From contig CAIXPS010000380.1 of the NCBI GenBank assembly GCA_903921365.1, positions 1 through 34,369 of the forward strand: a DNA stretch of 34,369 nucleotides, given 5' to 3'. Shown piece by piece: positions 2-32,124 of this stretch (its first letter is position 1; the number at the start of each line of letters is the position of its first letter). The position numbers were made by a program, and so were the translations under genes. This DNA comes from an uncultured bacterium (GTDB lineage Bacteria > Chloroflexota > Anaerolineae > J036 > Brachytrichaceae). A model generated the notes under the pieces. That model was not told where the DNA came from. It worked only from the letters and a program-made list of their open reading frames with translations, and ran no database searches.

Positions 2-703
2 GATCTGTTCAAAGCCAACCCCGCTGTGTCCGAAAAAGTCTCGGCTGTGGTTATGAAGGCGCTGAACAAGGATCCACGCGCTCGCTACGCCAGCGCCGGC
101 GCTTTTTCGCAGGCATTTGCGGCGACACTGGACAAGAAGCGAGCAACGGCGCTGCCCAGGTGGCTGGTTTTAGCCGGGGGATTAGCCACATTGCTCGTAG
201 TGGCAGTGCTGGCTATCGCCGTAATCAGCGCATCGCCTACACAGGGAAGCGACGCCACGCCGGTCGGCAACAGCGCACAACGTGCAGGCGTCGCCACTGC
301 GACGAGAAGAACATCTACTACCGGAACGCGCGTGGTATCAAAGGATGACACGATACTGGTGGACAGCACCGAGACTGTTGAAACACCGACGCCTGATACG
401 GCGCCAGGCCAGCCAACAGTGACACCTGACTTGCGTGTTATAGCTTCGGAGACGCCGCGCCCGTCCACGCCTGTTCCAACGCGCACAGCTGTGCCTGACG
501 CGCCAACCAATGTCGCACCTACATCACCGCCGGAACCGACCTCCGCGCCACCACCTGGCCCGACATCCGCGCCGCCGCCTGGCCCGACATCCCCACCACC
601 GCCAACAACACCGCCAATCATTGTGGTGCGACCGCCGATTTTGATCACCGCGATCATCATCAGGCCGCCAATCATCCGAATAACCCCTATCCGGTTACCT
701 TGA
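2..703 (+). CDS. C-terminal part of a receptor Ser/Thr protein kinase (5' end outside window)
   Basis: The reading frame is open from base 2, so only the end of the gene is present. The first ~35 residues match the last helix of a PknB-type kinase C-lobe (VVMKALNKDPRARYASA, as in other bacterial kinases of this family). A single membrane helix follows (around WLVLAGGLATLLVVAVLAIA), then an outside segment of ~150 residues rich in Thr, Pro and Ala with PTSAPPPGP-type repeats. A kinase inside and a Pro-rich stalk outside is the family norm. The stalk shares TATRR and PGQxTVTPDL motifs with the PP2C phosphatase encoded 85 bases downstream, which suggests a common origin of the two tails. The last ~30 residues are an odd Ile/Pro/Arg-rich tail with three RPPI-like repeats. 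The catalytic core is not visible, so activity cannot be judged. Confidence 0.85.
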   Translation, partial: DLFKANPAVSEKVSAVVMKALNKDPRARYASAGAFSQAFAATLDKKRATALPRWLVLAGGLATLLVVAVLAIAVISASPTQGSDATPVGNSAQRAGVATATRRTSTTGTRVVSKDDTILVDSTETVETPTPDTAPGQPTVTPDLRVIASETPRPSTPVPTRTAVPDAPTNVAPTSPPEPTSAPPPGPTSAPPPGPTSPPPPTTPPIIVVRPPILITAIIIRPPIIRITPIRLP

Positions 704-787
704 TTAGAATATCAACACGATAGGTAGACTGCTATAACCATAAGCATTGATATCTCAGAATTACTGGAGTGTTACGGAGACTGAAGA

Positions 788-2176
788 ATGCCAACACCAA
801 CGATTACCTGGTACGCCGACAAGGATCAAGGGCCGCGCTCCGAAAATCAAGATGCGGTGCGCGTCACTGATCCCAACGATATTGCCCACAGAAACTCCAA
901 AGGCGTGGTGCTTGTGCTATGCGATGGTGTGGGTGGTGAAAAGGGAGGGCAACGCGCATCGTCGATTGCATCCGAGACGGCGTTTAACGCATACTACGCA
1001 GATAACACGCCGCCGCCGCAGGCGCTTCTCAATGCCGTTAATGCCGCACACCTGGCGGTGCGCGCGGCGGCCGCAGCCGATTCAAGCGTCAAAAACATGG
1101 CATCGACGATCGTCGTGCTGTCGATTGTCGATGACAAACTGCATGCCGCACATGTTGGCGACAGCCGCGCCTACTTGCTGCATGGCGACACGCTCAGTCA
1201 TCTGACAAAAGACCATAACTGGGTTGCTGAGCAGGTCGTAAAGGGGTTGATGACGCAACAAGATGCGCGCGTGAGCAATAAACGCAACATCATCACACGG
1301 TCGCTAGGCGCCTCGGCCAACCACTCTCCTGACGTCATGACCGAACCAATCACATTACAACCAGGCGACCGGCTGATGATCTGCAGCGATGGTCTACATG
1401 GCCCAGTGATGGATGAGCAGATCAAAGCGATCCTGCTGGCAAATCCCACCCCGCAGCGCGCGGTAGCTGCGCTGATCCAGGCAGCAAAAGACAATCACAC
1501 AACCGACAACATCTCATCGATCGTGCTCAACTATGGCGCGTTGGCGCCTGTCAAAAAAGGGTTGCCAATCGCTCTGATTGGCGCGATCGTCGCGATTATC
1601 GTCGTGCTCGCCATAAGCGTCGCAGTGCTTGGTTCCATACTTACAACTGGGAGTGACGCCGGGCCTACGCCAAATTCAGTGGGAGTCACCGCCACGCGGC
1701 GCGCGGCAAAGCGAGCGACGAGTGTGGCTCAGGGCACCGATGCGAATACGTTGCCAACAGACCCCAGCGACAATAGCACCGCAGAACCCACGCAGACACT
1801 GCCCGGCCAGGCTACAGTCACGCCCGATCTGAGCAATACGGCGACTTCAGTGCCAGTGGTTGCAACCGCAGCGCCCGCAGTCAAACCCACTGATACACCT
1901 CTGCCAGGGCCTACGTCACCGCCTACAGACACACCAAAGCCAGCCAATACGCCAAAGCCAGGTGAAACGGCGCGACCAACTGATCCACCCAAACCGCCAG
2001 CCGCGACATCGGTGCCAGTGCCGACATCTCCGCCGGGGGCAACAGTTGCGCCGACATCACCGCCAGCCGCAACAGCTGCGCCGACATCTCCGCCAGCACC
2101 GACATCTCCGCCAGCGCCGACATCTCCGCCAGCACCGACATCTCCGCCAGCACCGACAAAAGCCCTGCCAGCGTAA
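788..2176 (+). CDS. Membrane-anchored PP2C-type Ser/Thr protein phosphatase
   Basis: Metal-dependent phosphatase expected to remove phosphate from Ser/Thr residues, the counterpart of the neighbouring kinases. Residues ~8-248 form a PP2C (Stp1/PrpC-like) domain. The metal-binding acidic motifs are present: ENQD (D22), CDGVGG (D46), SDG (D201) and TDN (D240), with GDSRAY between them. A single TM helix spans ~259-285. The remaining ~175 residues are an extracellular Pro/Thr/Ala stalk ending in PTSPPA repeats. Many bacterial PP2C proteins have a cytoplasmic catalytic domain and one TM helix; the long stalk here mirrors that of the preceding kinase. The ATG at 788 has a GGAGA element about 9 bases upstream. 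The gene lies between kinase genes, so it probably reverses their phosphorylations. Family assignment is secure; targets are unknown. Confidence 0.95.
   Translation: MPTPTITWYADKDQGPRSENQDAVRVTDPNDIAHRNSKGVVLVLCDGVGGEKGGQRASSIASETAFNAYYADNTPPPQALLNAVNAAHLAVRAAAAADSSVKNMASTIVVLSIVDDKLHAAHVGDSRAYLLHGDTLSHLTKDHNWVAEQVVKGLMTQQDARVSNKRNIITRSLGASANHSPDVMTEPITLQPGDRLMICSDGLHGPVMDEQIKAILLANPTPQRAVAALIQAAKDNHTTDNISSIVLNYGALAPVKKGLPIALIGAIVAIIVVLAISVAVLGSILTTGSDAGPTPNSVGVTATRRAAKRATSVAQGTDANTLPTDPSDNSTAEPTQTLPGQATVTPDLSNTATSVPVVATAAPAVKPTDTPLPGPTSPPTDTPKPANTPKPGETARPTDPPKPPAATSVPVPTSPPGATVAPTSPPAATAAPTSPPAPTSPPAPTSPPAPTSPPAPTKALPA
2081..2158 (+). repeat. 18-bp tandem repeat coding PTSPPA
   Basis: Four near-identical 18-bp units (CCGACATCTCCGCCAGCA, with one A/G change) plus a partial fifth lie at the 3' end of the phosphatase gene. 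Less regular PTSPPx units precede them from about 2024. The unit keeps the reading frame and lengthens the extracellular Pro-rich stalk. Copy number probably varies by slippage. Confidence 0.9.
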
Positions 2177-2190
2177 AAAGGATACGAACC

Positions 2191-3390
2191 ATGAACAACC
2201 AAACTCGGTTCAGCAAAATCGTGCTTCTGGTTATAGCCACGCTTTTACCAGTTGGATTTTTTGCCTTGTTGTTGAAAGCGCCGGAAATCCGTGTGCAGGA
2301 ACAAGCATTCGCAGGTTCAGTAAGCATTCCGGAATGGCATATGCTGAGTCCTGATCCGAATAGCTGGGTTACTACAACTCAGCCAATCGCTATTCTTGTT
2401 CAGGTCACAAACACCGAGGGAGTGAAATCAGTCTCCCCCTTTGCAGACTTACAAAGAGGTTTGAATAATGACTTAATACTGCTCAATGTAACTATCGTCA
2501 ACACTCAATCGATGATTATAGAAATCCCAAGCATAACCTTAAGTGAAGGTACTGCTAATATCATCACCTACACCATTTACTATACCAGCAGCAGTCAGCC
2601 TACACTACAAGACAAGGTATTTTCATTAAAACAAGACAGTGTCCCACCAACGGGATCGATTCTTTACCCAAGATCGTCCATCACCTGGACACATGACGCT
2701 ATCATCAGCGTTACCTGGGCTATCACAGACCCAATTTTCTCAAACGCCGCAAGTGGTCTGACAAAAACGGTTGTTTGGTTTTATCTAAAGCCAGATAGCC
2801 CACCAGTTCCCATCACGCGCACTGCTGACATGTCTATTACATGGATGGTTTCGACAACAGATAGTTCAAATCAAGCAAGTATTCATCTACAGCTAAGTGA
2901 CAACGCTGGTAACCAGAATGAAATAAGTAGTGAGTTGTTTGCCGTTAACCCAACAACCCGCACATACACCTATTTACCGGCCATATCAAATCGGTATCCC
3001 TGTGATAATCAGGCTGCAGACTGGTGCGAACCGAACAATACAATTACGACGGCGTTCAAACTTGCCTTAAATTATCCCATCATTGCCAGCATCAACATGA
3101 CGACCGATCGGTACGACTATTATCGTGTGAGCCTAAACGTAGTACGACCGTATACGGCAACTTTAACACCAGTGCAACCTAATCCATGTCCTGACTCTTC
3201 ACCATGCGATATAGACCTATACTTGCGTGAGGTTGTCGCACCGTTTACCTATAGGGCTATCTCAAACGGCCCAGGAGCGAGTGAGCAATTCGTCTTTACA
3301 CCTTCGATCACGAGTACAGGCGACTATGTCGTGTTAGTGTATGCCGCAAACTCGTACTCACTAACGCAGTATTCACTGATCGTCAAATAA
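2191..3390 (+). CDS. Secreted or membrane-anchored protein with Ig-like and PPC domains
   Basis: Extracytoplasmic protein of unknown role. Residues ~8-30 are a hydrophobic signal peptide or anchor (KIVLLVIATLLPVGFFALLL). The middle, ~40-250, is beta-rich and resembles Ig-like or cadherin-like modules (VPPTGSILYP, SDNAGN). The C-terminal ~110 residues match the bacterial pre-peptidase C-terminal (PPC) fold: CEPNNTITTA, YDYYRVSL, DIDLYL, GDYVVLVYA. A YLPAISNRYP segment joins the two and resembles the YLP motif common near the C-termini of Chloroflexi secreted proteins. The start sits 14 bases after the phosphatase stop with an AAAGGA site, so it is probably co-transcribed. The gene is visibly more A+T rich than its neighbours, which may mean separate acquisition. 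No catalytic motif was seen. Confidence 0.8.
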   Translation: MNNQTRFSKIVLLVIATLLPVGFFALLLKAPEIRVQEQAFAGSVSIPEWHMLSPDPNSWVTTTQPIAILVQVTNTEGVKSVSPFADLQRGLNNDLILLNVTIVNTQSMIIEIPSITLSEGTANIITYTIYYTSSSQPTLQDKVFSLKQDSVPPTGSILYPRSSITWTHDAIISVTWAITDPIFSNAASGLTKTVVWFYLKPDSPPVPITRTADMSITWMVSTTDSSNQASIHLQLSDNAGNQNEISSELFAVNPTTRTYTYLPAISNRYPCDNQAADWCEPNNTITTAFKLALNYPIIASINMTTDRYDYYRVSLNVVRPYTATLTPVQPNPCPDSSPCDIDLYLREVVAPFTYRAISNGPGASEQFVFTPSITSTGDYVVLVYAANSYSLTQYSLIVK

Positions 3391-3403
3391 GTAATGCGTA
3401 AAT

Positions 3404-4942
3404 ATGCCAACACAATTTGGGGCATACACTCTCCTTGAGGAGATCAGTCGCGGCGCAACAAGCGTTGTCTATCGCGCAAAATCCAGGCAAGGGAGAATCG
3501 TTGCGCTCAAAGTGCTGGCGCGGCACTTGCTTGATGATCCTGTTGCGCGCCGGCGCTTCATGTTCGAGCCAAAGAAACAGCCGCGCGATGCCCATATCGT
3601 GCGCGTGCTCGACACCAATGTGGCTGAAGGCGTTCCGTATATCGCGATGGAATTCATTGACGGGCCGTCCTTTGCGGACAGGATCCGTCAGGCCAAGACC
3701 ACCGGGGGCACAGTCCCACTGGCTGAAGTGGATCATGTGCTGGGCGATATTGCCAAAGCGCTGAATGCGGCGCATAAAAAGGGCACTATTCACCGCGATG
3801 TAAAACCCAGCAATATCCTTATCCGGTCGCGCGACCACCGCGCCTTTCTAATGGACTTCGGGCTCGCACAATCCTCAGTGGCTGGAGCGTCGAGCGGACT
3901 GACGGGAGTGATTCCGAGCGGCTCAACGGATTACATCTCGCCCGAGCAAATCAAAGGCGGGACCATGGGGCCCGGCGCGGACATTTACAGTCTGGGGATT
4001 ACGATCTACCAGGCGCTCGCCGGCGACTTGCCGTTCAAATCCGAGGACTCCATCGTGCAGATGCACAAGCACCTGAACGAATTACCGCCTGCACTGTCCA
4101 GCGCTAACCCGCGCATTCCTCAGCAAGTCTCAAAAGTGGTCATGCGCACACTGGAAAAGAATCCAGTTTTACGGTATGCGAGTGCTATGGAATTCGCGCA
4201 GGAATTCCACGCGGCACTCCCGGGGAAACCTGCCAGTGCCGCGCGCTGGCCTATAATTGCGGGTCTGGGTGGGGTCGTTCTTGTAGTTGTCGCCATTGTT
4301 GGGATTGGACTGCTTGGAGCGCCAAAACCGCCGCCAAACAACCAAGCGACGCAGAAACCAGTAATCAGCACACCCATACGTCGGACAGCGGTTCCGACTG
4401 TTGTCGTTCCTACTGACACTGAAGACGACTCGCGCGCCACGGAAGCCCCGCCGACAATTGCCACCGAATCTGCGCCGGCAGCAGCAACAGCGACACTGGC
4501 GTCATTCGAGCCAGTCACTGAAGAGGTCACCGCAACGAACCAGACAACCCCTCACCAAACCGGGGCAAACCAAATACTGCTGCTTCCTGGGACGATCGGG
4601 GCAGAACGATGGGGCAAACCCACCTCACAGGATGGATGCAGCAACTTTGACGATCGCATTCCAGTCACAAAGTACGAAGTAATGATCACCATTTCCAATA
4701 CGGGCAGTAGCCCATTAAAGGACTGGAGAGTCGACTCTTATGCGGGTCACGGCGGGCCGTTAGCCAAATGCGTTATTGTCGGAGTTGAAGGATCCTCCGT
4801 CGCAGCGGATGCCAGTCAAAACCTCAAATTTGATCTTTATGTCGAAAGGGACATCTTGACGCGCCTGGAGTTTGTTGGTGCGGATGTTACAAGCAAATTG
4901 TGCGTGGATGCCCTCGGCAAGACGCTTACACCGTGTAATTAG
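3404..4942 (+). CDS. Receptor Ser/Thr protein kinase with four-cysteine ectodomain
   Basis: Transmembrane protein kinase, PknB-like. The cytoplasmic kinase domain spans ~8-270: an imperfect Gly loop (SRGATSVV), the beta-3 lysine K36 (VALKV), HRDVKPSN with catalytic D132, DFG with D151, and SPEQ replacing APE. A TM helix lies at ~281-303. The outside part has a short Thr/Pro linker (~305-390) and a compact C-terminal domain (~395-512) with four cysteines: C412 (TSQDGC), C456, C500 (KLCVDA) and C511 (TPC). The same domain ends the next kinase, and I do not recognise it as a named family. The ATG at 3404 lacks a clear ribosome site and lies 13 bases after the upstream stop, so coupled translation is likely. 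All catalytic residues are present, so an active kinase is expected. Confidence 0.95.
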   Translation: MPTQFGAYTLLEEISRGATSVVYRAKSRQGRIVALKVLARHLLDDPVARRRFMFEPKKQPRDAHIVRVLDTNVAEGVPYIAMEFIDGPSFADRIRQAKTTGGTVPLAEVDHVLGDIAKALNAAHKKGTIHRDVKPSNILIRSRDHRAFLMDFGLAQSSVAGASSGLTGVIPSGSTDYISPEQIKGGTMGPGADIYSLGITIYQALAGDLPFKSEDSIVQMHKHLNELPPALSSANPRIPQQVSKVVMRTLEKNPVLRYASAMEFAQEFHAALPGKPASAARWPIIAGLGGVVLVVVAIVGIGLLGAPKPPPNNQATQKPVISTPIRRTAVPTVVVPTDTEDDSRATEAPPTIATESAPAAATATLASFEPVTEEVTATNQTTPHQTGANQILLLPGTIGAERWGKPTSQDGCSNFDDRIPVTKYEVMITISNTGSSPLKDWRVDSYAGHGGPLAKCVIVGVEGSSVAADASQNLKFDLYVERDILTRLEFVGADVTSKLCVDALGKTLTPCN

Positions 4943-4975
4943 CCTTGAGTTCATCAGGAGCAGGAAGGTGAGGAC

Positions 4976-7279
4976 ATGAGCACAGCCAATTCCCTTGCGC
5001 CGGGCAGTATCGTTGGCAGCTACCAGATCATTGACATGATCGCGCAGGGCGGCATGGGTATCGTCTATCGCGCGCAGCATCGCATACTGAAGCGCGAAGC
5101 CGCGCTGAAAATATTGTTCCCTCACCTGGCCGCTGACTCTGAATTCACACAGCGCTTCCTGCGTGAAGGCATGGCAATGGGACAGCTCAGGCATCCAAAC
5201 ATAGTCGAGGTGTACGATGCCAACGTCGCCGATGGTTACTATTACCTGGCCATTGAATACCTGCCCGGCGGCACGCTCAGCCAGCAAATGAATCGGTTTC
5301 ACTCGACCAGGCAGTTTATGCCCGTCAATGATGCGCTGAAAGCCATCCAGCAGGTGGCGCTTGCCCTCAACTATGCGCACAGCAAGGGTTTCGTGCATCG
5401 CGACATCAAGCCCAGTAATATCATGATCGCGGCCGATGGAAGATATGTTGTCACTGATTTCGGCATAGTCCACGCAGAAGGAGCGACCAAACTCACTCGC
5501 AGTGTTGAGGCGATGGGCACCCCGGAGTATATGTCGCCAGAACAAGCACAGGGCATGAAAGTGGATGGCCGCAGCGACATCTATTCACTAGGGATCGTGC
5601 TATATGAAATGCTCACCGGTAAACCCCCATTCGTTGCAGACACCCCCTGGGGCACGGTCTACAAGCATATCAAAGAACCCCCCACCCCCATTACGCGTGT
5701 TCGCACTGACCTGCCAGGCGCAGTTGTCGAAATCGCGAACAAAACGATTGCTAAAAAACCAGAGGATCGTTTTCAGACCGCCGGTGAATTAGCCGCTGCT
5801 ATTGATGGCATTACTAAACCCAAAATGCGGGGCGGAAATGCTTCTGAATCTTTCAGGACAGGTGTGACCACTGGCACAGGCGGCAGCAACCGTCTCTTTA
5901 TCATCGGCGGGATTGCGGTTTTATTAGTTGTTGTCGTAGCGGCTATCGTATTCGTTGCTTCAACACTTCTCTCGCCCACAACACCACCGGCTGCGCAATC
6001 CACATTGGTTGCAGCTGCTGTAACCGCTACCAGGCGTGCTGTTGCGACCACGGCTCCAGCACAAACTGAGCAGGCGACTGTCGTCGATGTAACGACTCAA
6101 CCCACCGGGACAGACCAGAACAACAAAGCCACGGCAACCATCGATAGCTCAAGCAACACTGACAGTGCCACGGCAACCTCGGAGGGAGCAACGGCAAGCG
6201 CGCCCCCTACGGCAACACCACCGGCGCCAGCAAGCGTCAAAGCGAGCGCGACAACAGCGCCGCCAGAAACACCGATCCCACAGAAAACACTCGCACCCAC
6301 AAACACCTCATCTCCCGGCGCGGCGCCAAAACCCGGTCAATTATTTGACTTTGAACAGGCATTTAGTTGGAGAATCGGGGACCAACCTTATGGGTCGCTG
6401 GAGCAATCCAACGCTCAGTCGCATGACGGCGCTTATTCGGCAAAGCTGACATATGACATCCCAGGGGTGAGCAATGCCTTTGTCGTCTTCTTAAATGATG
6501 TCCAGTTGCCAGGCCAACCGACCGGTCTTCTGGCATGGGTCTATGGCGATGGCAGCGGACATTTTCTAAATACGTGGATCGGCGATGCCAACGGTCAGGT
6601 CAGGCAATACACCTTTGGGCGCGTTTTTCACGCTGGCTGGCAGCAGATGATCGCATGGTTCGACGATACCCGCCCCTGGCCCAACACTTATATCAGTGGG
6701 CCCGACAACGGCAAGCTGAGTTATCCGATCACATTCAAAGCATTGGTGCTGGATGCGGCCCCACACGGGACTGCCACAAAAGGAGCCATCTATATCGATG
6801 AGGTGACTCTGACAACACAAAGTGTGCCAGCGAGTGGGGCAACACCTATACCAGCGGCAGCCGCCACCGCGTCCGGCGCGCCCATTACTGGAACAGCGTC
6901 TGCGCAGGACTTCTCTTTTGGGAACTATACCATTGGTCGGCAGCAATGGGGTAAGCCAACCTCGGCTGACGGTTGCGGCAGTTTTAGCAACGATAACGTC
7001 GGCCTCTGGCTTAAATACGAGATCAACTTCGATATCGTGAACAGCGGACAATCCGACATCAGCAACTGGTCGCCGGTCTTCCTCAGCAACATCCGAAATG
7101 TGCTGCCAACTTGCGTTAATAAAGCTGGCAGCACAACGATTTCAGTGGGAGCATCCACCCACGTTGCTTACACGCTCTATATGACAGGCCAGTACCTTGA
7201 GACGATTGAGGTAAAAACAGATGCCTTGACGAAAAAGCTGTGTGTGGATGCCTATGGCAAGACAATTACACCCTGTTGA
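4976..7279 (+). CDS. Receptor Ser/Thr protein kinase with jelly-roll and four-cysteine ectodomains
   Basis: Transmembrane Ser/Thr kinase. The kinase domain spans ~14-275 with a canonical Gly loop (QGGMGIVY), K45, HRDIKPSN (D143), DFG (D161) and SPEQ. A TM helix lies at ~308-331, followed by a Thr/Pro/Ala linker that contains TATRR. Residues ~455-615 look like a galactose-binding or CBM-type jelly roll (DFEQAFSWRIG, AYSAKLTYD, YIDEVTLTT), which could bind wall sugars. The last ~125 residues repeat the four-cysteine domain of the previous kinase: C667, C713, C756 and C767, the last being the final residue, with WGKPTS and KLCVDAYGKTITPC. The start at 4976 follows a GGAAGGTGAGG stretch. It is 33 bases from the upstream gene and probably in the same operon. 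Ligand and substrates are unknown. Confidence 0.95.
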   Translation: MSTANSLAPGSIVGSYQIIDMIAQGGMGIVYRAQHRILKREAALKILFPHLAADSEFTQRFLREGMAMGQLRHPNIVEVYDANVADGYYYLAIEYLPGGTLSQQMNRFHSTRQFMPVNDALKAIQQVALALNYAHSKGFVHRDIKPSNIMIAADGRYVVTDFGIVHAEGATKLTRSVEAMGTPEYMSPEQAQGMKVDGRSDIYSLGIVLYEMLTGKPPFVADTPWGTVYKHIKEPPTPITRVRTDLPGAVVEIANKTIAKKPEDRFQTAGELAAAIDGITKPKMRGGNASESFRTGVTTGTGGSNRLFIIGGIAVLLVVVVAAIVFVASTLLSPTTPPAAQSTLVAAAVTATRRAVATTAPAQTEQATVVDVTTQPTGTDQNNKATATIDSSSNTDSATATSEGATASAPPTATPPAPASVKASATTAPPETPIPQKTLAPTNTSSPGAAPKPGQLFDFEQAFSWRIGDQPYGSLEQSNAQSHDGAYSAKLTYDIPGVSNAFVVFLNDVQLPGQPTGLLAWVYGDGSGHFLNTWIGDANGQVRQYTFGRVFHAGWQQMIAWFDDTRPWPNTYISGPDNGKLSYPITFKALVLDAAPHGTATKGAIYIDEVTLTTQSVPASGATPIPAAAATASGAPITGTASAQDFSFGNYTIGRQQWGKPTSADGCGSFSNDNVGLWLKYEINFDIVNSGQSDISNWSPVFLSNIRNVLPTCVNKAGSTTISVGASTHVAYTLYMTGQYLETIEVKTDALTKKLCVDAYGKTITPC

Positions 7280-7385
7280 CCCGGTGGAAATGACTTCCAT
7301 GCAGTAGTATTGCTTTGAATCCTTTAGGACTGTAATACATAACGCTCCCCATTGCCGCCCAGACCTGCCATCAATATGCAGATCC

Positions 7386-7408
7386 GAATGATTGCTTTTG
7401 AATCATTC
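7386..7408 (+). promoter_or_regulatory. Leader dyad upstream of the third complete kinase
   Basis: A perfect 8-bp inverted repeat (GAATGATT and AATCATTC, 7-base loop) lies in the 153-base gap before the kinase at 7433, just ahead of its AGGAGA ribosome site. This is the longest gap in the + strand signalling block, so separate control of the last genes is possible. It has no T tract, so it does not look like an intrinsic terminator. A dyad of this size can arise by chance in a window this long. Confidence 0.35.
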
Positions 7409-7432
7409 AGGACGATTAAGAGGAGATGAAAT

Positions 7433-9529
7433 GTGTCAATGACACGAATCGGGCAGTACGAGATACTCGGTAAGATCGCATCAGGTGGGATGGGAATCGT
7501 TTATCGCGCCATCCATACTCCATTGCATCGCGAAGTTGCGCTCAAAGTGTTGCTTCCCGACCTGGCCGATGATGTCAATGCACTTGCCCGTTTCCAACGT
7601 GAGGCACAGTCCGCAAGCAAACTCAGGCACCCAAACATCATCGAAGTCTATGACCTGGGCCAGGCGGATGGTCAGAACTACATGGCGATGGAGTACCTGC
7701 CCGAAGGCAGTTTACAGCAAAAACTGCGCGAGATGGTTCTCGAAGACACGGCGGCGCTGACTGAGGAGCAAGTTCTGAGGATGACTCGCCCACTTGCCGA
7801 TGCGCTGGGGTATGCGCACGAGCAAGGACTTGTCCATCGTGATATTAAACCAAGCAATATCCTGCTGCGCGGCGACGGGACACCGGTTCTGGCGGATTTT
7901 GGGATTGTGCTGGCTACTACGGCAACCCGCCTGACCCGCAACCTCAGCGCCATTGGCACTCCCGACTATATGTCTCCCGAGCAGGGTAAGGGTGGCGCTG
8001 TCGATGGCCGCAGCGATCTGTACTCGCTCGGAATCGTCATGTACGAGATGCTGGAAGGTGAACCTCCGTTCAAGGCAGACACGCCCGTGGCTGTTGTCTA
8101 CAAGCATATTAAAGACCCCTTGCCCGAGATCAGGCGCAAGGATGTTTCGCTGCGAACACGCCGAATCATCGAAAAAGTCACCGCCAAGGAACCAAACGAC
8201 CGCTACCAGACGGGCGCCGAACTGATCAAAGCAATCGACTTGGCGCTGGATGATCTTCAACGCGGCGCCGTGACCAGGAAAGGGGTCAGTGTCGCCATGC
8301 CTGCGGCAATTGAGCCGGTCACTGCGCTAACGCCTGCGGGCACTGACCCTATACAACCGTCGAATCGATTAAGGCGGCGCAATCTGATCTTGGGGCTTGT
8401 CGCCGCCGTCGCGTTGGCGCTGCTGATCGGAGGCTCGGTAGTCATAATAAACGCAATCAGTAGTAACACAACCCAGCAGGGAACACTTGGGACAGCAACT
8501 GCGCCGTCGACCGGCGCACGGCAACAACTGACTGCAACGGCTGCCGAACTGACAGTGTCGCCGACCGATGCCGCTACGCTTGCGGTCATAGCGACAAGCG
8601 CTACAACCGTTGAGCCGACTGCTGCAACCTCACCCACCCCATCTGATACAGCGATACCGCCGACCAGTCTTCCGACGAACACCCCCTTACCCAGCGGTAG
8701 CTGTCTGCCTGGGTACGTTTACAGGTTGGCGCGCCCTGCGGATAAAATATGTGTCCCGCCAGCATCGCGCAACCAGGCGCAAGCGGATAACTCAGCAGCC
8801 GCTTCGCGCAGGGCTGTCGCCACAAACGGGCCGGATACTTGCAAAGCTGGATACGTGTTTCGCCTGGCATTCAATAACGACCACGTGTGCGTCACACAGG
8901 CGGTGCGCAACCAGGTCCAGGCCGATAACGCGGCTGCGGCCTCAAGGAAATTGTTGCAGTACGGGCCCGATACGTGTATCCTGGGCTACGTCTGGCGCGA
9001 GGCATACCCAAATGACCATGTTTGCGTCACTGGAGCCACCCGCGCCCAGGCACAAGCAGACAATGCCGCAGCCGCATCGCGTATTGATCCGGGTGGCGCA
9101 TATGGGCCGAACTCATGTGTAGCGGGCTACGTCTGGCGCGAGGCGCGAACGGAGGACTACGTGTGCGTCACAGCAGTCATTCGCTCACAAACGGCTGGGG
9201 ACAACGCAGCGGCTGCGTCTCGCCAGGTTGTTGCGAGTGATGGGCCCGATACATGCAAGGATGGCTTTGTCTGGCGCCTTGCATCAAGCAGTGATCACGT
9301 TTGTGTGACATCAGACATCCAGGCGCAAGCTCAGGCAGATAATAGTGCTGCCGCATCCCGTAAACTGCTGCAACAGGGGCCAGACACATGCATCAATGCC
9401 GGTGGCGGCGCTAGCGGTAGCTATGTATGGCGCCTGGCATTTCCAGGAGACCATGTTTGCGTCAGTGCCGATGTCGCAGCGGCAGTTAAAAAGGATAACA
9501 ACCTTGCACCCAGTCGGACAGCGCCATAG
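7433..9529 (+). CDS. Receptor Ser/Thr protein kinase with six-repeat cysteine-paired ectodomain
   Basis: Transmembrane PknB-like kinase. The kinase domain spans ~9-270: SGGMGIVY loop, K38, HRDIKPSN (D137), DFG (D155), SPEQ. A TM helix lies at ~316-340 and a Thr/Pro/Ala linker at ~345-420. The ectodomain, ~423-698, is six consecutive modules of about 45 residues. Each has the pattern GPDTC-x2-GYVWRxA-x4-DHVCVT-x10-DNAAAASR, with two cysteines that could pair as one disulfide per module. This module type is known from extracellular bacterial proteins but its ligand is not established. A GTG at 7433 sits 6 bases after AGGAGA and was preferred to the ATG at 7439. Kinase activity is expected. Confidence 0.93.
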   Translation: MSMTRIGQYEILGKIASGGMGIVYRAIHTPLHREVALKVLLPDLADDVNALARFQREAQSASKLRHPNIIEVYDLGQADGQNYMAMEYLPEGSLQQKLREMVLEDTAALTEEQVLRMTRPLADALGYAHEQGLVHRDIKPSNILLRGDGTPVLADFGIVLATTATRLTRNLSAIGTPDYMSPEQGKGGAVDGRSDLYSLGIVMYEMLEGEPPFKADTPVAVVYKHIKDPLPEIRRKDVSLRTRRIIEKVTAKEPNDRYQTGAELIKAIDLALDDLQRGAVTRKGVSVAMPAAIEPVTALTPAGTDPIQPSNRLRRRNLILGLVAAVALALLIGGSVVIINAISSNTTQQGTLGTATAPSTGARQQLTATAAELTVSPTDAATLAVIATSATTVEPTAATSPTPSDTAIPPTSLPTNTPLPSGSCLPGYVYRLARPADKICVPPASRNQAQADNSAAASRRAVATNGPDTCKAGYVFRLAFNNDHVCVTQAVRNQVQADNAAAASRKLLQYGPDTCILGYVWREAYPNDHVCVTGATRAQAQADNAAAASRIDPGGAYGPNSCVAGYVWREARTEDYVCVTAVIRSQTAGDNAAAASRQVVASDGPDTCKDGFVWRLASSSDHVCVTSDIQAQAQADNSAAASRKLLQQGPDTCINAGGGASGSYVWRLAFPGDHVCVSADVAAAVKKDNNLAPSRTAP
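8699..9526 (+). repeat. Six tandem modules in the kinase ectodomain
   Basis: Six imperfect direct repeats of about 130-150 bases encode the CxxGYVWR...VCVT...DNAAAASR module. The first copy is the most diverged at its start (CLPGYVYRLARPADKICV) and the last carries a short Gly/Ser insertion (GGGASGS) and a degenerate end. This indicates expansion by unequal duplication. Confidence 0.9.
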
Positions 9530-9613
9530 GTTATTTATAATCCGAGGATTGCATTCAACCATCATAGGGGCACGCTACGCGCCGCCGTGCGGCTGCCTAT
9601 TTGCGGAGTGTTT

Positions 9614-11473
9614 ATGACATCACATATTACTGAACAGGACAATGCGCAGTTGAGCAGTGAGCGCGCAAACGCTCTGGATAGACTTGCTCACCAACTTGAA
9701 AACAGCGTGCCGCCGCAGTTGGTGCTTTCATCAGTGTGCAAGACCCTCGTGCTTGAGTTGCGCGCATTGCAGGTTACTATTTCGCTCAGGCGCGTCGACA
9801 AGGAGGAGTTGGAACCCGTCACGCAACACCGCAGCGACGACTTTGCAACAAGCAACAGCAGCGAAGTACTCTCCGCCAGTAGCGGAGTACCCTCCGCCAG
9901 TAGCGGAGTACCCTCCGCCAGTAGCCCAACCACGACTCGCCGGCTCAAATACCCGATTTCTTACCGGGGAGAAACGATTGGGCAACTGGCGATCATCCTG
10001 GACGCCAACAGCCAACCGATTTCGCCACAGGAAGATCAACTACTGAGTGACATTGCCCATCGCACCGGAACAGCAGCGCATGTGGTGCGCATCACACGCG
10101 ATCTGCAGCATGCGCGTGAGCGGCTTGTGCTGGCGCGCGAGGAAGAGCGCCGCAAATTACGGCGTAACCTGCACGATGCTGTCGGGCCTACTCTGACCGC
10201 AATCATGCTGCAAATGGGCGCCTTGCGTGACCGAGTGAGCCAAGACCCAGCTGCTGAGGCGATTGTGTCTGATCTGCGCGAACAAATACGGGGAGTCGTG
10301 ACTCAAATCCGCCACGTTATCTATGATTTGCGCCCACCGGCGTTGGAAGAACTGGGACTGCTGACAACGATACGGGAGCAGGCGCAACAGTTTTCTGTCT
10401 CTGATCTCAAAGTCACTGTTTACGCGCCAGACTACTTGCCGCTATTGCCTGCCGCCGTGGAGGTCGCGACGTATCGCATCGTGCTGGAAGCGTTGAATAA
10501 CGTTGCGAAACACTCACACGCCACGCAGTGTGACATCCGGTTGCGCATTGCTGACAACTTGCTTGTCGATATCACTGACAACGGCATCGGTATGCCTGAC
10601 AGGCTTCAGGCCGGCGTTGGCATCATCTCGATTCGCGAACGCGTCTCTGAGCTTGGCGGGAGTTGCACCTTCAAAAAAATACCGAGCGGCGGCACGCACG
10701 TTTCCGTCCGTCTACCGATGTTTCAGGCAATCGAGCCTGCCCTCACCATCAGCGCGGCCCCCCCCGCCCTGCGACAAACGATGCAATCGATGACGGCCAT
10801 TGCGACCGACGAACACGGCATGCGTGAACCAATAAAAGTAATGCTCGTGGACGATCACCGCTTCTTCCGGGAAGGGGTGCGTAACGTGCTTAAGACAGTT
10901 GAAGATATCCAAGTCGTGGGTGAAGCCGCCACAGGAATGGATGCGATCGAACTCGCCAGGACTTCACAGCCGAATGTCATCCTGATGGATATCCAGATGC
11001 CCGGGCTGAATGGCATCGAAACCACGCTGCGCATCCTGCGCGTCGTGCCATTTGCAGGCATTGTGATCATGACGATGCTGGAAGACACTGACATGCTGCT
11101 TTCAGCGCTTCGCGCCGGCGCGCGCGGCTATATTCTCAAGGATGCTGATGAACAGGAGTTGTTGCGCTCAATACGCGCAGTTGCGAGCGGTGAAGCGTTT
11201 TTCGGGCCGGAAGTGGCGCGCCGCCTCCTGCAATATGTGGCAAGCCTCGAACCCGCATCTGCAAAAACCGCGTTCCCTGATTTGACCGAGCGGGAGCGTG
11301 AGATTCTAGCATTAATGGCGCAGGAACGTAGCAACGAGGATGTTGCCACTATCCTGGGGACCTCGATTAAAACAGTGCGTAATCAAGTATCCAGCATTCT
11401 GTCGAAGATGCAGGTAAGCGACCGCGAAGAAGCCATTGCCCGAGCAAAGGCTGCCGGGATGCGGCAGCCGTAA
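9614..11473 (+). CDS. Histidine kinase fused to NarL-type response regulator
   Basis: Soluble signal transducer carrying a full two-component pathway in one chain. Residues ~20-150 look like a GAF-type sensor. A HisKA_3 dimerisation helix follows with phospho-acceptor H187 (RRNLHDAVGPTLTA). Next comes an HATPase_c domain (N box in LEALNNVAKHS, then DNGIGMP). After a linker at ~395-405 there is a receiver domain (VDDHRFFREG; phospho-acceptor D459 in LMDIQMPG) and a C-terminal LuxR/NarL helix-turn-helix (LTEREREILALMAQ to LSKMQVSDREEA). No TM segment is seen. The ATG at 9614 has GGAG 5 bases upstream; an in-frame GTG at 9587 is less likely. Histidine kinases of this class are usually separate from their regulator, so the fusion is notable. 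A target promoter is not identified. Confidence 0.93.
   Translation: MTSHITEQDNAQLSSERANALDRLAHQLENSVPPQLVLSSVCKTLVLELRALQVTISLRRVDKEELEPVTQHRSDDFATSNSSEVLSASSGVPSASSGVPSASSPTTTRRLKYPISYRGETIGQLAIILDANSQPISPQEDQLLSDIAHRTGTAAHVVRITRDLQHARERLVLAREEERRKLRRNLHDAVGPTLTAIMLQMGALRDRVSQDPAAEAIVSDLREQIRGVVTQIRHVIYDLRPPALEELGLLTTIREQAQQFSVSDLKVTVYAPDYLPLLPAAVEVATYRIVLEALNNVAKHSHATQCDIRLRIADNLLVDITDNGIGMPDRLQAGVGIISIRERVSELGGSCTFKKIPSGGTHVSVRLPMFQAIEPALTISAAPPALRQTMQSMTAIATDEHGMREPIKVMLVDDHRFFREGVRNVLKTVEDIQVVGEAATGMDAIELARTSQPNVILMDIQMPGLNGIETTLRILRVVPFAGIVIMTMLEDTDMLLSALRAGARGYILKDADEQELLRSIRAVASGEAFFGPEVARRLLQYVASLEPASAKTAFPDLTEREREILALMAQERSNEDVATILGTSIKTVRNQVSSILSKMQVSDREEAIARAKAAGMRQP
9861..9923 (+). 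repeat. Three in-frame copies of a 21-bp palindromic repeat
   Basis: Three head-to-tail 21-bp units, the first slightly diverged, lie within the sensor region of the histidine kinase and code for Ser/Ala/Gly/Val-rich residues. The core GCGGAGTACCCTCCGC is a palindrome with 6-bp arms and a TACC loop. The identical 16-mer recurs intergenically at 29325 and degenerate copies occur at 28438, so this is a dispersed element inserted into a coding region. Confidence 0.85.
11449..11469. terminator. Hairpin at the convergent gene junction
   Basis: GGCTGCC and GGCAGCC form a perfect 7-bp GC-rich stem with a 7-base loop at the very end of the histidine kinase coding sequence. Only 17 bases separate the stop from the convergent vWA-FHA gene. 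There is no clear T tract, so termination is a guess from position. Confidence 0.35.
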
Positions 11474-11490: not shown

Positions 11491-13404
11491 TCACATCCGG
11501 ATCTGGGTCCGGTCATTGTTGACCCAGCGCTCACCCTGCCCGGATGCGAAGCGCAACTTCACGCCTAGATTGGCAATATCCCCTAATGTGATTTCGTCGC
11601 CATCCCGCAAAGGCACTTGAACCCCGACCTTCAATTTTGCGCCATTTACGCGCGTGCCATTGGTGGACCCATTGTCTTTGATCGTAAATTCGCCGGGCGC
11701 GGACATCTCCAGCACGGCATGGACGCCGCTGACCGTGCTTGGCTGTCCAGCATAAAAAGTCACATCACACTTCGGATCGCGTCCAATAACAATGCTAGGC
11801 TTAGTCAAGCGCACCTGCTCATTCGTCCTATTGGGCGGTCCCTGCAAGACGATCAAGGTTGCGAGCGCGGGCGCCGCAGGCGGCCCCTTACTCGATCCCT
11901 TCCCTCCACCTGGGGCTGATCTGCGTCGACGCGACAGAAGCAGAATCACAATCAGCAAGATGACTAAAACGACCACAACGGCGATGAGAATTGGGACGAT
12001 GGGCGTATCAGTGGGAATTACCGGCGTTGGTGTCGCAGTGGGAACTACTGGCGGCGCCACTTCAACCGTCACCCGCTCTTGCGCAGATGCCTCACTGCCT
12101 AACGCATCGACGACGCGAACCGTTAGCGTTGCAATATTCGCGCCCGGCTTGGTAATATCCGAGAGATCCGCCACCACCTCAAGGCTGGTTGTGCCGGGCG
12201 ACAAGTCTGCTGCTGTTTTAGTGTCTTTCACAACGCCATTCACAGAGAACTCGACTTTCTGTAACGCGCGCGTGATGTTATCCGTCCAGGCGACGTTTAC
12301 CTGCGCCCTGATGCTCAATGGGCTATATAGACTCTGAGTCGGAGAAGTTGCTGAGGCGCCCGGAAGCGGCGCGCGACGCAGGAATGTAGATTGTGGCGTC
12401 AGCGTCACCAGCGGTGGCGAGACAGTGACGTTGTACTCACCCGCGCGGCCTGTGTCTGGTTTCTCCGGGGACCCCACAGTGACTGTGCGCGCCCCGGAAG
12501 CGCCGGACGGGCTGACATAGGAGATTGTGTAATACTGGCGTTGAAATGCAAGTTGCTGGTAGATATCATCCATTGCGGCGCCGGCGGCATTGGGGACAAG
12601 CTTTACAAACTTGCCACTTGTGCCGACTGCTGCCAACTGCAAAGGCGGCTGGTCCGGGAGTGCGTTATCCGTTTGAACTGCATGGACGATGATGTATTTG
12701 GCTTTTGCATCAGATGCCGTGTTTTGAGCGCCGACGCTGGCAACGTTGGCTTGTGGATCCTCTATCGAACGCGCTATGAAAATGATCGCAGCGTCCTGGA
12801 TGCCTGGCTCCTTGACGATTTGATTCATCTCGCTGACTGCATCATCAATGCCCTTAAGACCTTTTGTGAGCCCTGCACTGCGCGGAAAAGTGTAGTTCGT
12901 GACAAAGTCAACAAACTCGCGCCCACGCGTTGTCGGCCCGACTTTGGACGTAGTGCGATCTCCCTGCCCGGGATTCTCGCGCACCAGTAGCTTAACGGTA
13001 TCACGGCCATCCACGAATGTCCCGCCATCCACCAGCCGCGTCATCGACTGTTTAAGCGCACCCAGTATGTTCTGGTAGTTTGACTGAGAACCCAGATCGA
13101 CGACGTAGACAATCGCAAGTGGGCCATCCGTATGCGGCGTCACGCGCACATCCTTTGCCGGGACTGGTTTCCCATTTTCAAAAACAGGCAGGTTGGCCGC
13201 GGTCAGATCCGGTATGGTATGGTTATTCGCGTCAATGGCGCGCAAGGTGAAACTGATTGCGGGGAACTTACTCGAATCCAAATTCGTGATGAAGTAAGTA
13301 TTGCTTCCCTGCGCCAGTAACGCAGGGGCACTCCCAAATAAACTGGCGAGCATCACCAGAACAAGAGCGACAACTGCTATCCAGTGGATGAGTTTAGTTT
13401 TCAT
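11491..13404 (-). CDS. Signal peptide-vWA-TM-FHA membrane protein (first of three paralogues)
   Basis: Extracellular vWA-like domain joined to a cytoplasmic FHA phosphopeptide-binding domain. A start at 13404 gives a clean signal peptide (MKTKLIHWIAVVALVLVM...LLAQ), whereas the longer frame from 13443 adds 13 polar residues and overlaps the upstream gene. The vWA-like region spans ~80-280; its metal site is degenerate (VVDLGSQ instead of DxSxS). An Ig-like segment lies at ~340-450. A TM helix at ~465-490 is followed by SRRRRS, which places the C-terminus inside. The FHA domain, ~530-620, keeps GRDPKCDV, VSGVHA and STNGTRVNG, so phosphothreonine binding is likely. It is the last gene of the ATPase operon. 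Binding partners are unknown; the nearby kinases are obvious candidates. Confidence 0.88.
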   Translation of the reverse strand: MKTKLIHWIAVVALVLVMLASLFGSAPALLAQGSNTYFITNLDSSKFPAISFTLRAIDANNHTIPDLTAANLPVFENGKPVPAKDVRVTPHTDGPLAIVYVVDLGSQSNYQNILGALKQSMTRLVDGGTFVDGRDTVKLLVRENPGQGDRTTSKVGPTTRGREFVDFVTNYTFPRSAGLTKGLKGIDDAVSEMNQIVKEPGIQDAAIIFIARSIEDPQANVASVGAQNTASDAKAKYIIVHAVQTDNALPDQPPLQLAAVGTSGKFVKLVPNAAGAAMDDIYQQLAFQRQYYTISYVSPSGASGARTVTVGSPEKPDTGRAGEYNVTVSPPLVTLTPQSTFLRRAPLPGASATSPTQSLYSPLSIRAQVNVAWTDNITRALQKVEFSVNGVVKDTKTAADLSPGTTSLEVVADLSDITKPGANIATLTVRVVDALGSEASAQERVTVEVAPPVVPTATPTPVIPTDTPIVPILIAVVVVLVILLIVILLLSRRRRSAPGGGKGSSKGPPAAPALATLIVLQGPPNRTNEQVRLTKPSIVIGRDPKCDVTFYAGQPSTVSGVHAVLEMSAPGEFTIKDNGSTNGTRVNGAKLKVGVQVPLRDGDEITLGDIANLGVKLRFASGQGERWVNNDRTQIRM

Positions 13405-13420
13405 GATGGCTTTGCATCCT

Positions 13421-15550
13421 TTAGGATTGGATGTGAAACTCAAGCTTCACTTTTGGCCCAAGACCAATAACCGATCGATCATCCAGACGTTCACGCCCGT
13501 TGTTTGGCAACCTCTTGCCGTTGACAAAGGTGCCATTAGTGCTATTGGCGTCCACAACATACCAGACGCCGCCCTCGTTCACAATTGACGCGTGTGATCC
13601 TGAAACGCCGCTCTGGCTATCCATCTTGATCACACCATCATTGCCATCGCGACGTCCAAGTGTGACACGCGCAGTTGAGATTTTCATCTGGAACTGGAGT
13701 GTTGCCGGCTCACGCGCGGCCAATGTAGCAGAGAAGCGAGTGGACGAGCCAGATTGGACAACCGGAGACTGGTTCATTGACTGTGAGACGCTTTCGGCCA
13801 ACGGGATAATGACCTGGGATCGATCCGACGCAGCCGCCTGGTGATGTCTGCGGTCCAGTTCAGGCTCAACAACCCGCACGTCGACACGTGAGCGCGCCCT
13901 TGCCACACGGATCAGAATGATGAAGCCGATCAGTGCCAGGAACGCCACAACAACCAGCACCACCACGGCAACTGACGACCGCCCGAGATCGTGCGCCAGT
14001 TTGTCAAAAAAGCCCGGACGTTCATATGTGACTGTGAAAGGCTTGGCCGCCTCAGCAATGATCTGGTTCGCGCCATCAAGTGCTTGAGCCTTGACCAGAT
14101 AAGCGCCAGAAGGCACGTCAGCGCCCGGGATAACGATCGGTAGATCTGGCGACTGGAAGGCTTCAGTTCCCGGGATTGGGCCACTGGCATTCTGACCACC
14201 AGACTGCTCAGGCTCAAGCCATGCCTTGTAGCGGGCAATCCCGGCAATGCCACCCGGGGTGGTTACAGTAACAACGAAGTTTGGCGCATCGAGCGATGGC
14301 GCGCTTACGGACGCAATCGCTATTTGCAATGGCGTCGGTTTGAACTGAAAATCGCGCGGGGTCGTGCGTGAAACAACGTTATTATTGGCGTCGACAGCAG
14401 CAATATCCAGCGTATAGCTGCCATCCTTGGCAAGGTTTGTCGCAGGAATGGCAAGTGATTCCTGCACATTCGGGAAGTCCAGGTTCAGGCTTGTCAGCCC
14501 AGTGGCCTTGTCGACCACCCGCGCCTGAAGTTTGGCGATCCTTGCGCGGTTCACAAGCGTCAGGTTCACAAGGATATTTCCCGGTGTCGTTCGCACTTCA
14601 CCGATCAGTTCGATCTTCGCCGGGGGTTCATATACTCTGTCAGACACAAAGGTGATCTGGCCCGGTAGCGCTGTCGTGTCTTTCAGCACCACCATGATAT
14701 CGACGGTTTGCTCGCCCTTTGGCGGGTACAACGTCCAATTGGCCTCCACCTGATTGGCCAGGCCGGAGAGCATGTTGCTCAGGCCAAAGATGAGATCATT
14801 CGGGCTGCGCACATAGGCAAGCCCCTTGCTCGGTTTGGTGTATTTTTCCAAGGTAGCCAGATTAACCGCGTAGCCATCAACTCCTAACGCGTGAATCTGA
14901 GTAGCGTGATTGACCGCCTCGTCAACAACTGCCTGAATCGAGGTGTTCGCGCAACCATCCTGACTCGCCGTAACCACAATGACCGCCTTACGCGTCGAGG
15001 CAGATTCCACGCGACGCACGGCTTCCAGCATACCGTCGTTCAGACATGGCTTAGCGCCGGTCTTGGCGTTCACCGCCGTCAACAGCTTCTTGCGCACTTC
15101 TTCTTTGTCCGACGTAAAGTCCTGGATCATTGTAGGAACTGTGTCGAATGTGACGATTGTGAAAAGTGCGTTATCGGGCATGCGGTCCAGCGACTTCGAC
15201 AACCCCTCAATCATGCGCCGGAAATCAGGAGAAGCAGCAAGTGTGCCGCTTGTGTCGACCAAAATCGATATAGCCATCTGTCCGGTCGGCTTGCCGAACG
15301 TTGCGGTATAGCGATCCTGCCCGATTTTGAGTTCGACATGATCAATATCGGCCGCGGCGGGCATACCGGCGCTATCGAGCACAGAAAACAACGTGCGAAC
15401 TTTCAATGCAGCCACACCATCTGCGCCTGCCTGTGCCGGTGTCGCCGTGGTATTGTGCACGTAAACTGCCGACGACCCGCCCTGGGCCATTAGCGATCCC
15501 GGATTGATCAACACGGCGATACAAAACGCCGTAACAAGTACCCGCTTCAT
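13421..15550 (-). CDS. Signal peptide-vWA-TM-FHA membrane protein (second of three paralogues)
   Basis: Same architecture as its neighbours. The signal peptide MKRVLVTAFCIAVLINPGSLMAQ is followed by a vWA domain at ~85-270 with the best-preserved metal-binding motif of the three (ILVDTSGT). Two or three beta-sandwich segments lie at ~280-500. A TM helix at ~525-550 precedes RVARARSR, so the C-terminal FHA domain is cytoplasmic. The FHA domain keeps LGRRDGNDG, VSGSHA and STNGTFVNG. GGAGG sits 4-5 bases before the ATG at 15550. The gene lies 15 bases after the third paralogue, in a tight operon. vWA domains bind protein ligands via a metal ion, so this copy is the most likely of the three to bind an extracellular partner. 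Its role in secretion is inferred from context only. Confidence 0.9.
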   Translation of the reverse strand: MKRVLVTAFCIAVLINPGSLMAQGGSSAVYVHNTTATPAQAGADGVAALKVRTLFSVLDSAGMPAAADIDHVELKIGQDRYTATFGKPTGQMAISILVDTSGTLAASPDFRRMIEGLSKSLDRMPDNALFTIVTFDTVPTMIQDFTSDKEEVRKKLLTAVNAKTGAKPCLNDGMLEAVRRVESASTRKAVIVVTASQDGCANTSIQAVVDEAVNHATQIHALGVDGYAVNLATLEKYTKPSKGLAYVRSPNDLIFGLSNMLSGLANQVEANWTLYPPKGEQTVDIMVVLKDTTALPGQITFVSDRVYEPPAKIELIGEVRTTPGNILVNLTLVNRARIAKLQARVVDKATGLTSLNLDFPNVQESLAIPATNLAKDGSYTLDIAAVDANNNVVSRTTPRDFQFKPTPLQIAIASVSAPSLDAPNFVVTVTTPGGIAGIARYKAWLEPEQSGGQNASGPIPGTEAFQSPDLPIVIPGADVPSGAYLVKAQALDGANQIIAEAAKPFTVTYERPGFFDKLAHDLGRSSVAVVVLVVVAFLALIGFIILIRVARARSRVDVRVVEPELDRRHHQAAASDRSQVIIPLAESVSQSMNQSPVVQSGSSTRFSATLAAREPATLQFQMKISTARVTLGRRDGNDGVIKMDSQSGVSGSHASIVNEGGVWYVVDANSTNGTFVNGKRLPNNGRERLDDRSVIGLGPKVKLEFHIQS

Positions 15551-15565
15551 GCAACCTCCATGTGT

Positions 15566-17524: not shown

Positions 17525-18153
17525 TATCCAATCACCTGGAAACTCAGGGCAATGTTACCAACCTTGATCAAGGCGCCTGGAAGCAATGGATATCGTTCGC
17601 TGACGCGCATTTTAACGCCATCAAGGAGTGTGGGGTTGCGATCCTGAATCGATTCGATATAAAACGATCCTCCTTTTTCAGTGATCGCGGCATGGTGACG
17701 CGACACGCTGGGCAACGTCTCCAATTCCTCCAGGTCAACTGCCAGCAAGCGGTTATTCCTAGGATCCCGCACATCGCGACGACCCATGATGGCCGGATAC
17801 CAGCGCAAGTCATACTCCGACAGTGTCCGTTGCTCACTCAGATAAACGCGCGAAAAACGCTTGCTGAATGGCTGGCGCACACCGCGCGTAATCGCATCCA
17901 GGATGCCTGTCGACTCAACGATCTTTACCACCTGTAGCGCCGCTCCCTCAGAGACGCTCAGTTGGTCGAGGGCTGAATCAACCGGGAGGGGGGTGCGCGA
18001 TCCCCGCATCAGCAAGTTGTAACTGCCGTCGAGGTTAAACTTGTCTTTGATTGTCGCGACAAGCGTCGCGACTTGCAAAGTGCCACGCACATTCACCCGC
18101 CGCGAACCGATGCTATTCGCCTGTATATCCAGGGTCAGATTGAGTCTGTCCAT
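17524..18153 (-). CDS. Soluble ubiquitin-like (EsaB/YukD-type) plus FHA fusion protein
   Basis: Residues ~3-77 resemble a ubiquitin-like fold: LNLTLDIQ strand, hairpin, VATLVATIKDKF helix, and a final GAALQVVKI strand. This is the type found alone as EsaB/YukD and at the N-terminus of EccD in type VII systems. Residues ~115-209 form an FHA domain with IMGRRD, VSRHHAAI and NPTLLDG, so the phosphothreonine pocket looks intact. There is no signal peptide or TM helix, so it should be cytoplasmic. The ATG abuts the ATPase stop (TAAATG) with GGAGG 8 bases upstream, inside the ATPase reading frame, indicating coupling to the motor. The FHA call is firm; the ubiquitin-like call rests on pattern only. 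In EssC the FHA domains are on the motor itself, whereas here they may be supplied in trans. Confidence 0.8.
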   Translation of the reverse strand: MDRLNLTLDIQANSIGSRRVNVRGTLQVATLVATIKDKFNLDGSYNLLMRGSRTPLPVDSALDQLSVSEGAALQVVKIVESTGILDAITRGVRQPFSKRFSRVYLSEQRTLSEYDLRWYPAIMGRRDVRDPRNNRLLAVDLEELETLPSVSRHHAAITEKGGSFYIESIQDRNPTLLDGVKMRVSERYPLLPGALIKVGNIALSFQVIG

Positions 18154-26934: not shown

Positions 26935-26982
26935 TAAATCACACCCTGTAATATGAAAACGCACAATATCCGTTCATTTCTC

Positions 26983-27062: not shown

Positions 27063-27240
27063 AAGCAGGAACGTTTTCTTTTTCATATGACCCGTTGTAT
27101 TGAAGTTTAACAGACGATAGCCTTTGTTCGATACTGCAAAACACCCTACTTGAGCAGATGATTTCGGTTGGGACATATGGAAATCACTCTGGACAAAGGA
27201 ATTGTCACATCTTATGATAGTGGTGTCAAGGATTTGTAAA

Positions 27241-30584: not shown

Positions 30585-30672
30585 TGACATACCTCCGGTT
30601 GCGCGACTGCGCCGGGCGGGGACAGAAAGTACTTAAGCCGCACCAGGCACGCTATGCAAACCACCAAACAAC

Positions 30673-31709: not shown

Positions 31710-31741
31710 GACTTTAAACCTCCGTAACACTCAATCTTGAA

Positions 31742-32056: not shown

Positions 32057-32124
32057 ATTTCCTCCTAATTTTCCTGCCCTTTGGGCAACTATTGATTGAC
32101 TGAACTCACTGTGCATATACTAAC

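Follow-up and report, generated by a model that had tools for sequence, protein, structure and literature searches.

A candidate threonine-phosphorylation control module beside a type VII secretion locus in an uncultured Chloroflexota bacterium

We analysed a stretch of 34,369 nucleotides (the window), which is one whole contig, C380, of an uncultured Chloroflexota genome. Its left part carries a block of receptor kinase and phosphatase genes and, to the right of it, a two-component fusion gene:

2..703, plus strand: receptor Ser/Thr kinase truncated by the contig edge, of which the C-terminal part remains (similarity to G204, membrane helix)
788..2176, plus strand: membrane-bound PP2C phosphatase with a Pro-rich tail (PF13672, PP2C_2, 56.3 bits; one membrane helix)
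2191..3390, plus strand: secreted protein, kept in the block of relatives (helix at residues 10-28)
3404..4942, plus strand: receptor Ser/Thr kinase (Pkinase 127 bits; motifs, helix)
4976..7279, plus strand: receptor Ser/Thr kinase (Pkinase 162.5 bits; motifs, helix)
7433..9529, plus strand: receptor Ser/Thr kinase whose membrane helix is followed by six Cys-containing repeats (Pkinase 161.4 bits; motifs, helix)
9587..11473, plus strand: histidine kinase/response regulator/LuxR fusion, between the two blocks (HisKA_3, HATPase_c, Response_reg and GerE in Pfam)

An earlier note on this DNA had described four receptor kinases and a PP2C phosphatase here. Three complete kinases and the membrane PP2C are borne out, but the fourth kinase is present only as a C-lobe tail, membrane helix and Pro-rich tail; this fragment gave no match in the Pfam scan and aligns at 46% over 232 aa with the C-terminal region of the complete kinase that G204, a genome of the same genus, has at this position. 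The secreted protein inside the block, which also had no match in the Pfam scan, and the histidine kinase fusion were not part of that description. Each complete kinase has one membrane helix and the VALK/AALK, HRDxKPSN, DFG and SPE motifs, and the VAIK Lys, HRD Asp and DFG Asp of Hanks-type kinases are present in all three, which are predicted from these residues to be active. The genome holds 34 Pkinase matches in 6.88 Mb, four of which (the three kinases and the pseudokinase described below) fall on this 34-kb contig against about 0.17 expected. The repeats of kinase 7433-9529, recognised by eye and without a Pfam match, are about 45 residues long with conserved Cys and are a possible sensor domain. 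Kinases 3404-4942 and 4976-7279 have alike extracytoplasmic C-terminal segments with a final Cys-containing motif of a shared type (by eye).

The block probably extends further left, beyond the contig edge. G204 has the whole block complete in the same gene order, and further out it encodes a second PP2C together with a kinase-FHA and an FHA protein. Our genome has relatives of the latter two (78% and 64% identical, respectively) on a separate short contig, C424, which we infer adjoins the window.

Beside this block, as the earlier note had stated, there are four FHA proteins; they are encoded on the minus strand at 11491-18153, and three of them are membrane proteins, two of those with a VWA domain:

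11491..13443, minus strand: membrane protein with a C-terminal cytoplasmic FHA domain (FHA 66.8 bits; signal-like and membrane helices)
13421..15550, minus strand: VWA - membrane helix - FHA protein (VWA and FHA Pfam matches; helices)
15566..17524, minus strand: VWA - membrane helix - FHA protein (VWA and FHA Pfam matches; helices)
17524..18153, minus strand: probable ubiquitin-like (YukD-like) domain fused to an FHA domain, the proposed adaptor (FHA match; YukD weak in the family)

The stops of the two blocks lie at 11473 and 11491, so the blocks are convergent and do not form one operon in the window, again in agreement with the earlier note. Transcription units were drawn from strand and spacing alone, and promoter-like sites in the sequence did not exceed shuffle level. 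Three of the four FHA domains in the window have the phosphothreonine-site residues R, S and N and the fourth has R, S and S; phosphothreonine binding is predicted on this basis. Across the FHA domains in the class-wide flanks described below, R, S/T and N are found in 64 of 87, or in 72 if S/T is allowed for N, and all three site residues are present in 5 of 12 FHA domains from named motor reading frames longer than 1200 aa. An alignment of 23 adaptors shows no variation at R125, S151 and R152 and almost none at N173. Weak YukD matches occur in 12 of these 23 (up to E 0.5, best 5e-5), the window member being unmatched. Two other motor loci encode proteins that are related to the ubiquitin-like part but stand alone, and these exceed the YukD cut-off.

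The right part of the window encodes the secretion machine:

18154..26964, minus strand: EccC/EssC-family motor of a type VII secretion system (T7SS), 2936 aa; three D1-D2 modules and a last ATPase domain (TIGR03928)
27202..28383, plus strand: protein with a Cys-rich N-terminus, a pseudokinase domain and a C-terminal membrane helix (Pkinase 43.2 bits)
28497..29306, minus strand: EspG-like protein, on weak evidence (PF14011 matches of family members)
29349..30590, minus strand: WXG100 domain with a Gly-rich tail (PF06013 36.3 bits; TIGR03930 above cut-off)
30718..31032, minus strand: small WXG100-like protein (81% identical to a G204 protein matched by the WXG100 profile)
31076..31393, minus strand: small WXG100-like protein (TIGR03930 24.7 bits, under its cut-off)
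31419..31730, minus strand: WXG100 protein (PF06013 39 bits)
31742..32116, minus strand: WXG100 protein (PF06013 42 bits; TIGR03930 above cut-off)

The assignment to type VII secretion is based on an EccC/EssC-family membrane ATPase together with three WXG100 proteins above the Pfam cut-off and two above that of TIGR03930. The motor scores 1563.9 bits with TIGR03928 against a cut-off of 778.4, has EccCa and EccCb domains above cut-off and two N-terminal membrane helices, and a search of our genome placed no FHA domain inside 18157-26964. Its three D1-D2 modules are 51-58% identical among themselves and it has about twice the usual motor length. Motors of similar length also occur in other classes of the phylum, and others within the class have frames of 1300-1600 aa; the longest open frame among the matches listed, of 4486 aa, contains the motor match at G287:C6:362224-365268. 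In the pseudokinase the membrane helix spans residues 365-383 of 393, and its family keeps the Lys and the DLG Asp and lacks the HRD-position Asp in all 20 aligned sequences (by eye). PF14011 matches 2 of 11 family members of the EspG-like protein (best 3e-4), the window member not being among them, and its profile found no convincing relative among solved structures. The adaptor and the EspG-like protein, folded as single sequences, gave models of mean pLDDT 32.5 and 37.0, which were discarded. A phage-type integrase lies at the right contig edge (33509-34369).

To place this arrangement in the class, we sought motor relatives, which were found in 70 of 396 class genomes (E up to 1e-28) and in 13 of 28 genomes of the family. 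Flanks of up to 20 kb per side were taken from 49 of the 69 other motor-bearing class genomes, hand-picked from the match list before kinases were examined, and scanned with profiles built from window proteins; with G203, G172 and G209 left out because they were absent from the genome counts, 54 loci became 51 in 46 genomes, own window excluded. At 19 of the 51 loci there is a PP2C gene, where genome-wide counts predict 1.11 (P 1.6e-19), and all 19 also appear in the Pfam listing. Kinases are present at 26 loci against 7.14 expected (P 5e-11), the expectation being based on the larger number of first-look candidates per genome because the kinase counts of some genomes stopped near 43; the Poisson figures, like the Fisher figures given below, treat genomes as independent. 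With one locus per genus the counts are 15 of 34 for PP2C and 21 of 34 for kinases, and with one per family 7 and 10 of 16. This class-wide excess of both rules out a chance neighbourhood in one genome. Conservation beside the motor, the check proposed in the earlier note, is thus frequent and not universal: 32 of the 51 loci show no PP2C and 25 no kinase in their flanks, many of which end at a contig edge.

At loci with a flank of at least 15 kb, PP2C occurs at 18 of 30 with an FHA gene versus 1 of 11 without, and kinases with both HRD and DFG occur at 20 of 41. Where a kinase or PP2C shares its flank with an FHA, WXG or EspG-like gene, 20 of 22 PP2C genes and 36 of 46 kinase genes are co-directional with the nearest such gene, 10 of the 20 and 18 of the 36 lying within 300 bp (gaps measured between stop-to-stop frames). 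Named motors, mostly from Bacillota and Actinomycetota among the matches listed, gave a kinase at 10 and a PP2C at 4 of 80 loci within flanks of up to 10 kb (by eye; flank sizes are unequal, so the set does not serve as a matched control).

Within the family, a relative of the VWA-FHA protein 15566-17524 (at least 100 bits) is found in 11 of 13 genomes with the motor versus 1 of 15 without (Fisher P 5e-5), and a relative of the PP2C (at least 150 bits) in 9 of 13 versus 1 of 15 (P 1e-3); the bit limits were chosen after viewing the lists of these 28 genomes, which are not independent. The sole exception for both is G201, which is 67% complete, so its motor may be absent from the assembly only. 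G202 has a single kinase, without the DFG motif, and its PP2C is located within the FHA run. In genomes beyond the family, the window PP2C mostly finds its best match elsewhere in the genome and not in a motor-linked gene, which leaves a single vertically inherited phosphatase across the class unsupported.

Beyond the class, a search of 400 phylum genomes with the pseudokinase, scoring up to 6 candidates per genome, matched at least 16, own genome included. Six of the seven neighbourhoods read (the exception is G462) share one gene order: four small WXG100 genes, the pseudokinase, the motor (2874-2993 aa) and a short FHA protein. In G450, one same-strand run comprises PP2C, kinase-like, FHA, FHA, short FHA, motor, pseudokinase and four WXG100 genes. 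The kinase profile gives this kinase-like gene 116 bits and the pseudokinase profile 118. In G406, FHA, kinase-like and PP2C genes lie close by on the opposite strand, and G708 and G429 have one additional kinase each. Two genomes of one genus in another class, G642 and G493, show the core locus with neither a catalytic-type kinase nor a PP2C in the stretch read. Returning to the family, G185 has an orphan motor, full-length at 61% identity (L068, L069; G185:C91), and the 20 kb on either side of it are free of kinase, PP2C, FHA and WXG genes. Motor loci without the kinase block, which the earlier note had said would refute its proposal, therefore do exist in some genomes, and a fixed, obligatory block is ruled out by these three genomes. 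Since the core is kept while kinase and PP2C genes vary, the constant part is the motor set with FHA proteins, and the kinase/phosphatase part is frequent and optional.

The recurrent clustering of this T7SS with sensor kinases, a phosphatase and phosphate-reading proteins suggests that reversible phosphorylation controls the machine. Our best reading, which we favour only slightly over its being wrong and which is drawn from sequence comparison, is that the window encodes a module which controls a type VII secretion system through threonine phosphorylation. The receptor kinases would respond to a cue outside the membrane by phosphorylating threonines, either in cytoplasmic portions of the machine or in one another. 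The FHA domains of the ubiquitin-like adaptor and of the VWA membrane proteins could then bind these phosphothreonines and so couple parts of the machine, with the adaptor, which may dock on the motor, as the reader nearest to it. The membrane-bound PP2C would erase the threonine mark, and the outcome would be control of secretion. This scheme is modelled by analogy on the T6SS threonine phosphorylation pathway, where kinases mark, FHA reads and PP2C erases. The phosphatase of that pathway is PppA. In the available parts of its descriptions, the T6SS pathway likewise has a membrane Ser/Thr kinase (PpkA), a PP2C-type phosphatase and an FHA reader (Fha) at the secretion locus; it serves another secretion machine, so the comparison is of working principle only, and Pfam scans of the window found no T6SS apparatus genes. 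Kinase control of the secretion machine, put forward in the earlier note as control of its assembly, gains from the excess at motor loci, the co-direction, the family co-occurrence and the FHA-site residues, and loses from the motors without the module in G185, G642 and G493. The view in that note that the link is positional holds for the convergent blocks of the window; the class-wide excess, co-direction and family co-occurrence indicate that it is more than local. We also consider, as a possible but doubtful extension, a phylum-wide T7SS variant in which the FHA domain of the adaptor, not the motor, reads phosphothreonine and joins the motor to membrane partners that carry the mark, the pseudokinase perhaps among them, with receptor kinases and membrane PP2C gating the tripled-module motor.

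Two other explanations account for parts of these data. The kinases, PP2C and FHA proteins may form a self-contained signalling island of a type common in these genomes. In that case an attraction of kinase genes to FHA genes would explain its position near the motor, and the island would have no effect on secretion. The convergence of the blocks in the window would fit this, and so would the FHA/kinase clusters without a seen motor elsewhere in our genome (L163 on C428 and L165 on C585, both with PP2C, and one on C511; L166 is also listed) and, in G185, a cluster of kinase-FHA, FHA, two PP2C and a secreted protein on a different contig from the motor. Such an island is harder to reconcile with the co-occurrence of these genes with the motor across the family and with loci where PP2C and kinase genes are interleaved co-directionally with FHA and WXG genes, and it leaves the constant presence of FHA proteins at motor loci unexplained; we regard it as unlikely.

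The other explanation, which we judge quite unlikely, takes the contact between FHA domain and pseudokinase to be structural and independent of phosphorylation, as in T7SSb, with the kinases acting on gene expression or the envelope and the two-component fusion setting transcription of the locus. Binding of this kind between FHA and pseudokinase is described for Bacillus subtilis YukB/YukC in the available part of PMC9600267, the pseudokinase here adjoins the motor, the two-component fusion lies between the blocks, and the accessible text of PMC11217815 cites dependence of T7SS transcription on IreK in Enterococcus faecalis. However, the FHA domains of T7SSb EssC lack phosphate-binding residues according to the portions of PMC10765036 and PMC9600267 at hand, whereas R, S/T and N are kept here in the 64 of 87 domains noted above, and the near-complete invariance of the four adaptor positions (n = 23) also speaks against this explanation.

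The locus bears on how type VII secretion is switched on. With receptor kinases, a PP2C and FHA sites that are intact and not on the motor, it offers a compact protein set for direct tests of phosphorylation control. The FHA domains of T7SSb reportedly do not recognise phosphothreonine, and several of the newer T7SS subtypes carry kinases and phosphatases (PMC11217815, accessible text). The same text describes T7SSc-T7SSj in Bacillota and Actinomycetota, with kinases, phosphatases and FHA proteins in many of them, and raises control by phosphorylation; the idea is therefore already known. The stem 'chloroflex' is absent from its main text, and our search of the literature on T7SS or WXG100 in Chloroflexi, Chloroflexota or Anaerolineae, in a mostly open-access coverage, listed a few papers, which as far as they were read mention WXG100 proteins of that phylum briefly.

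Set against published descriptions in the available parts of these sources, the system is best read as a T7SS variant closest to T7SSh. With T7SSh and T7SSi (Garrett, Higginson and Palmer 2024, PMC11217815) it shares WXG100 proteins and, putatively, a ubiquitin-like and an EspG-like protein, and with T7SSh a motor without FHA domains; the kinase-like protein with a single C-terminal membrane helix and no ectodomain (27202-28383) matches TshM of T7SSh by architecture. It differs from both in that the ubiquitin-like protein bears an FHA domain, the motor has three D1-D2 modules and about 2900 aa, and the locus also encodes VWA-FHA membrane proteins, receptor kinases and a PP2C. Tad pilus genes, which neighbour T7SSh, were not found by Pfam scan among the 20 reading frames of the window. 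As in T7SSc and T7SSe (PMC11217815), there is a membrane Ser/Thr kinase and a PPM phosphatase at the locus, and T7SSe also has a separate FHA protein and conserved phosphothreonine motifs; T7SSe, however, carries FHA on its motor, and the vWA protein of T7SSc is predicted to be cytoplasmic, whereas the VWA domain here is part of a protein with a membrane helix and FHA. T7SSb (EssC, EssB and EsaB; PMC10765036, PMC9600267) resembles our system in its motor family, WXG100, the ubiquitin-like protein (putative here), a membrane pseudokinase beside the motor and FHA domains in the system, but EssC has two N-terminal FHA domains and the motor here has none. What appears to be new is the combination of an FHA-bearing adaptor, VWA-FHA proteins in the membrane, several receptor kinases and tripled motor modules.
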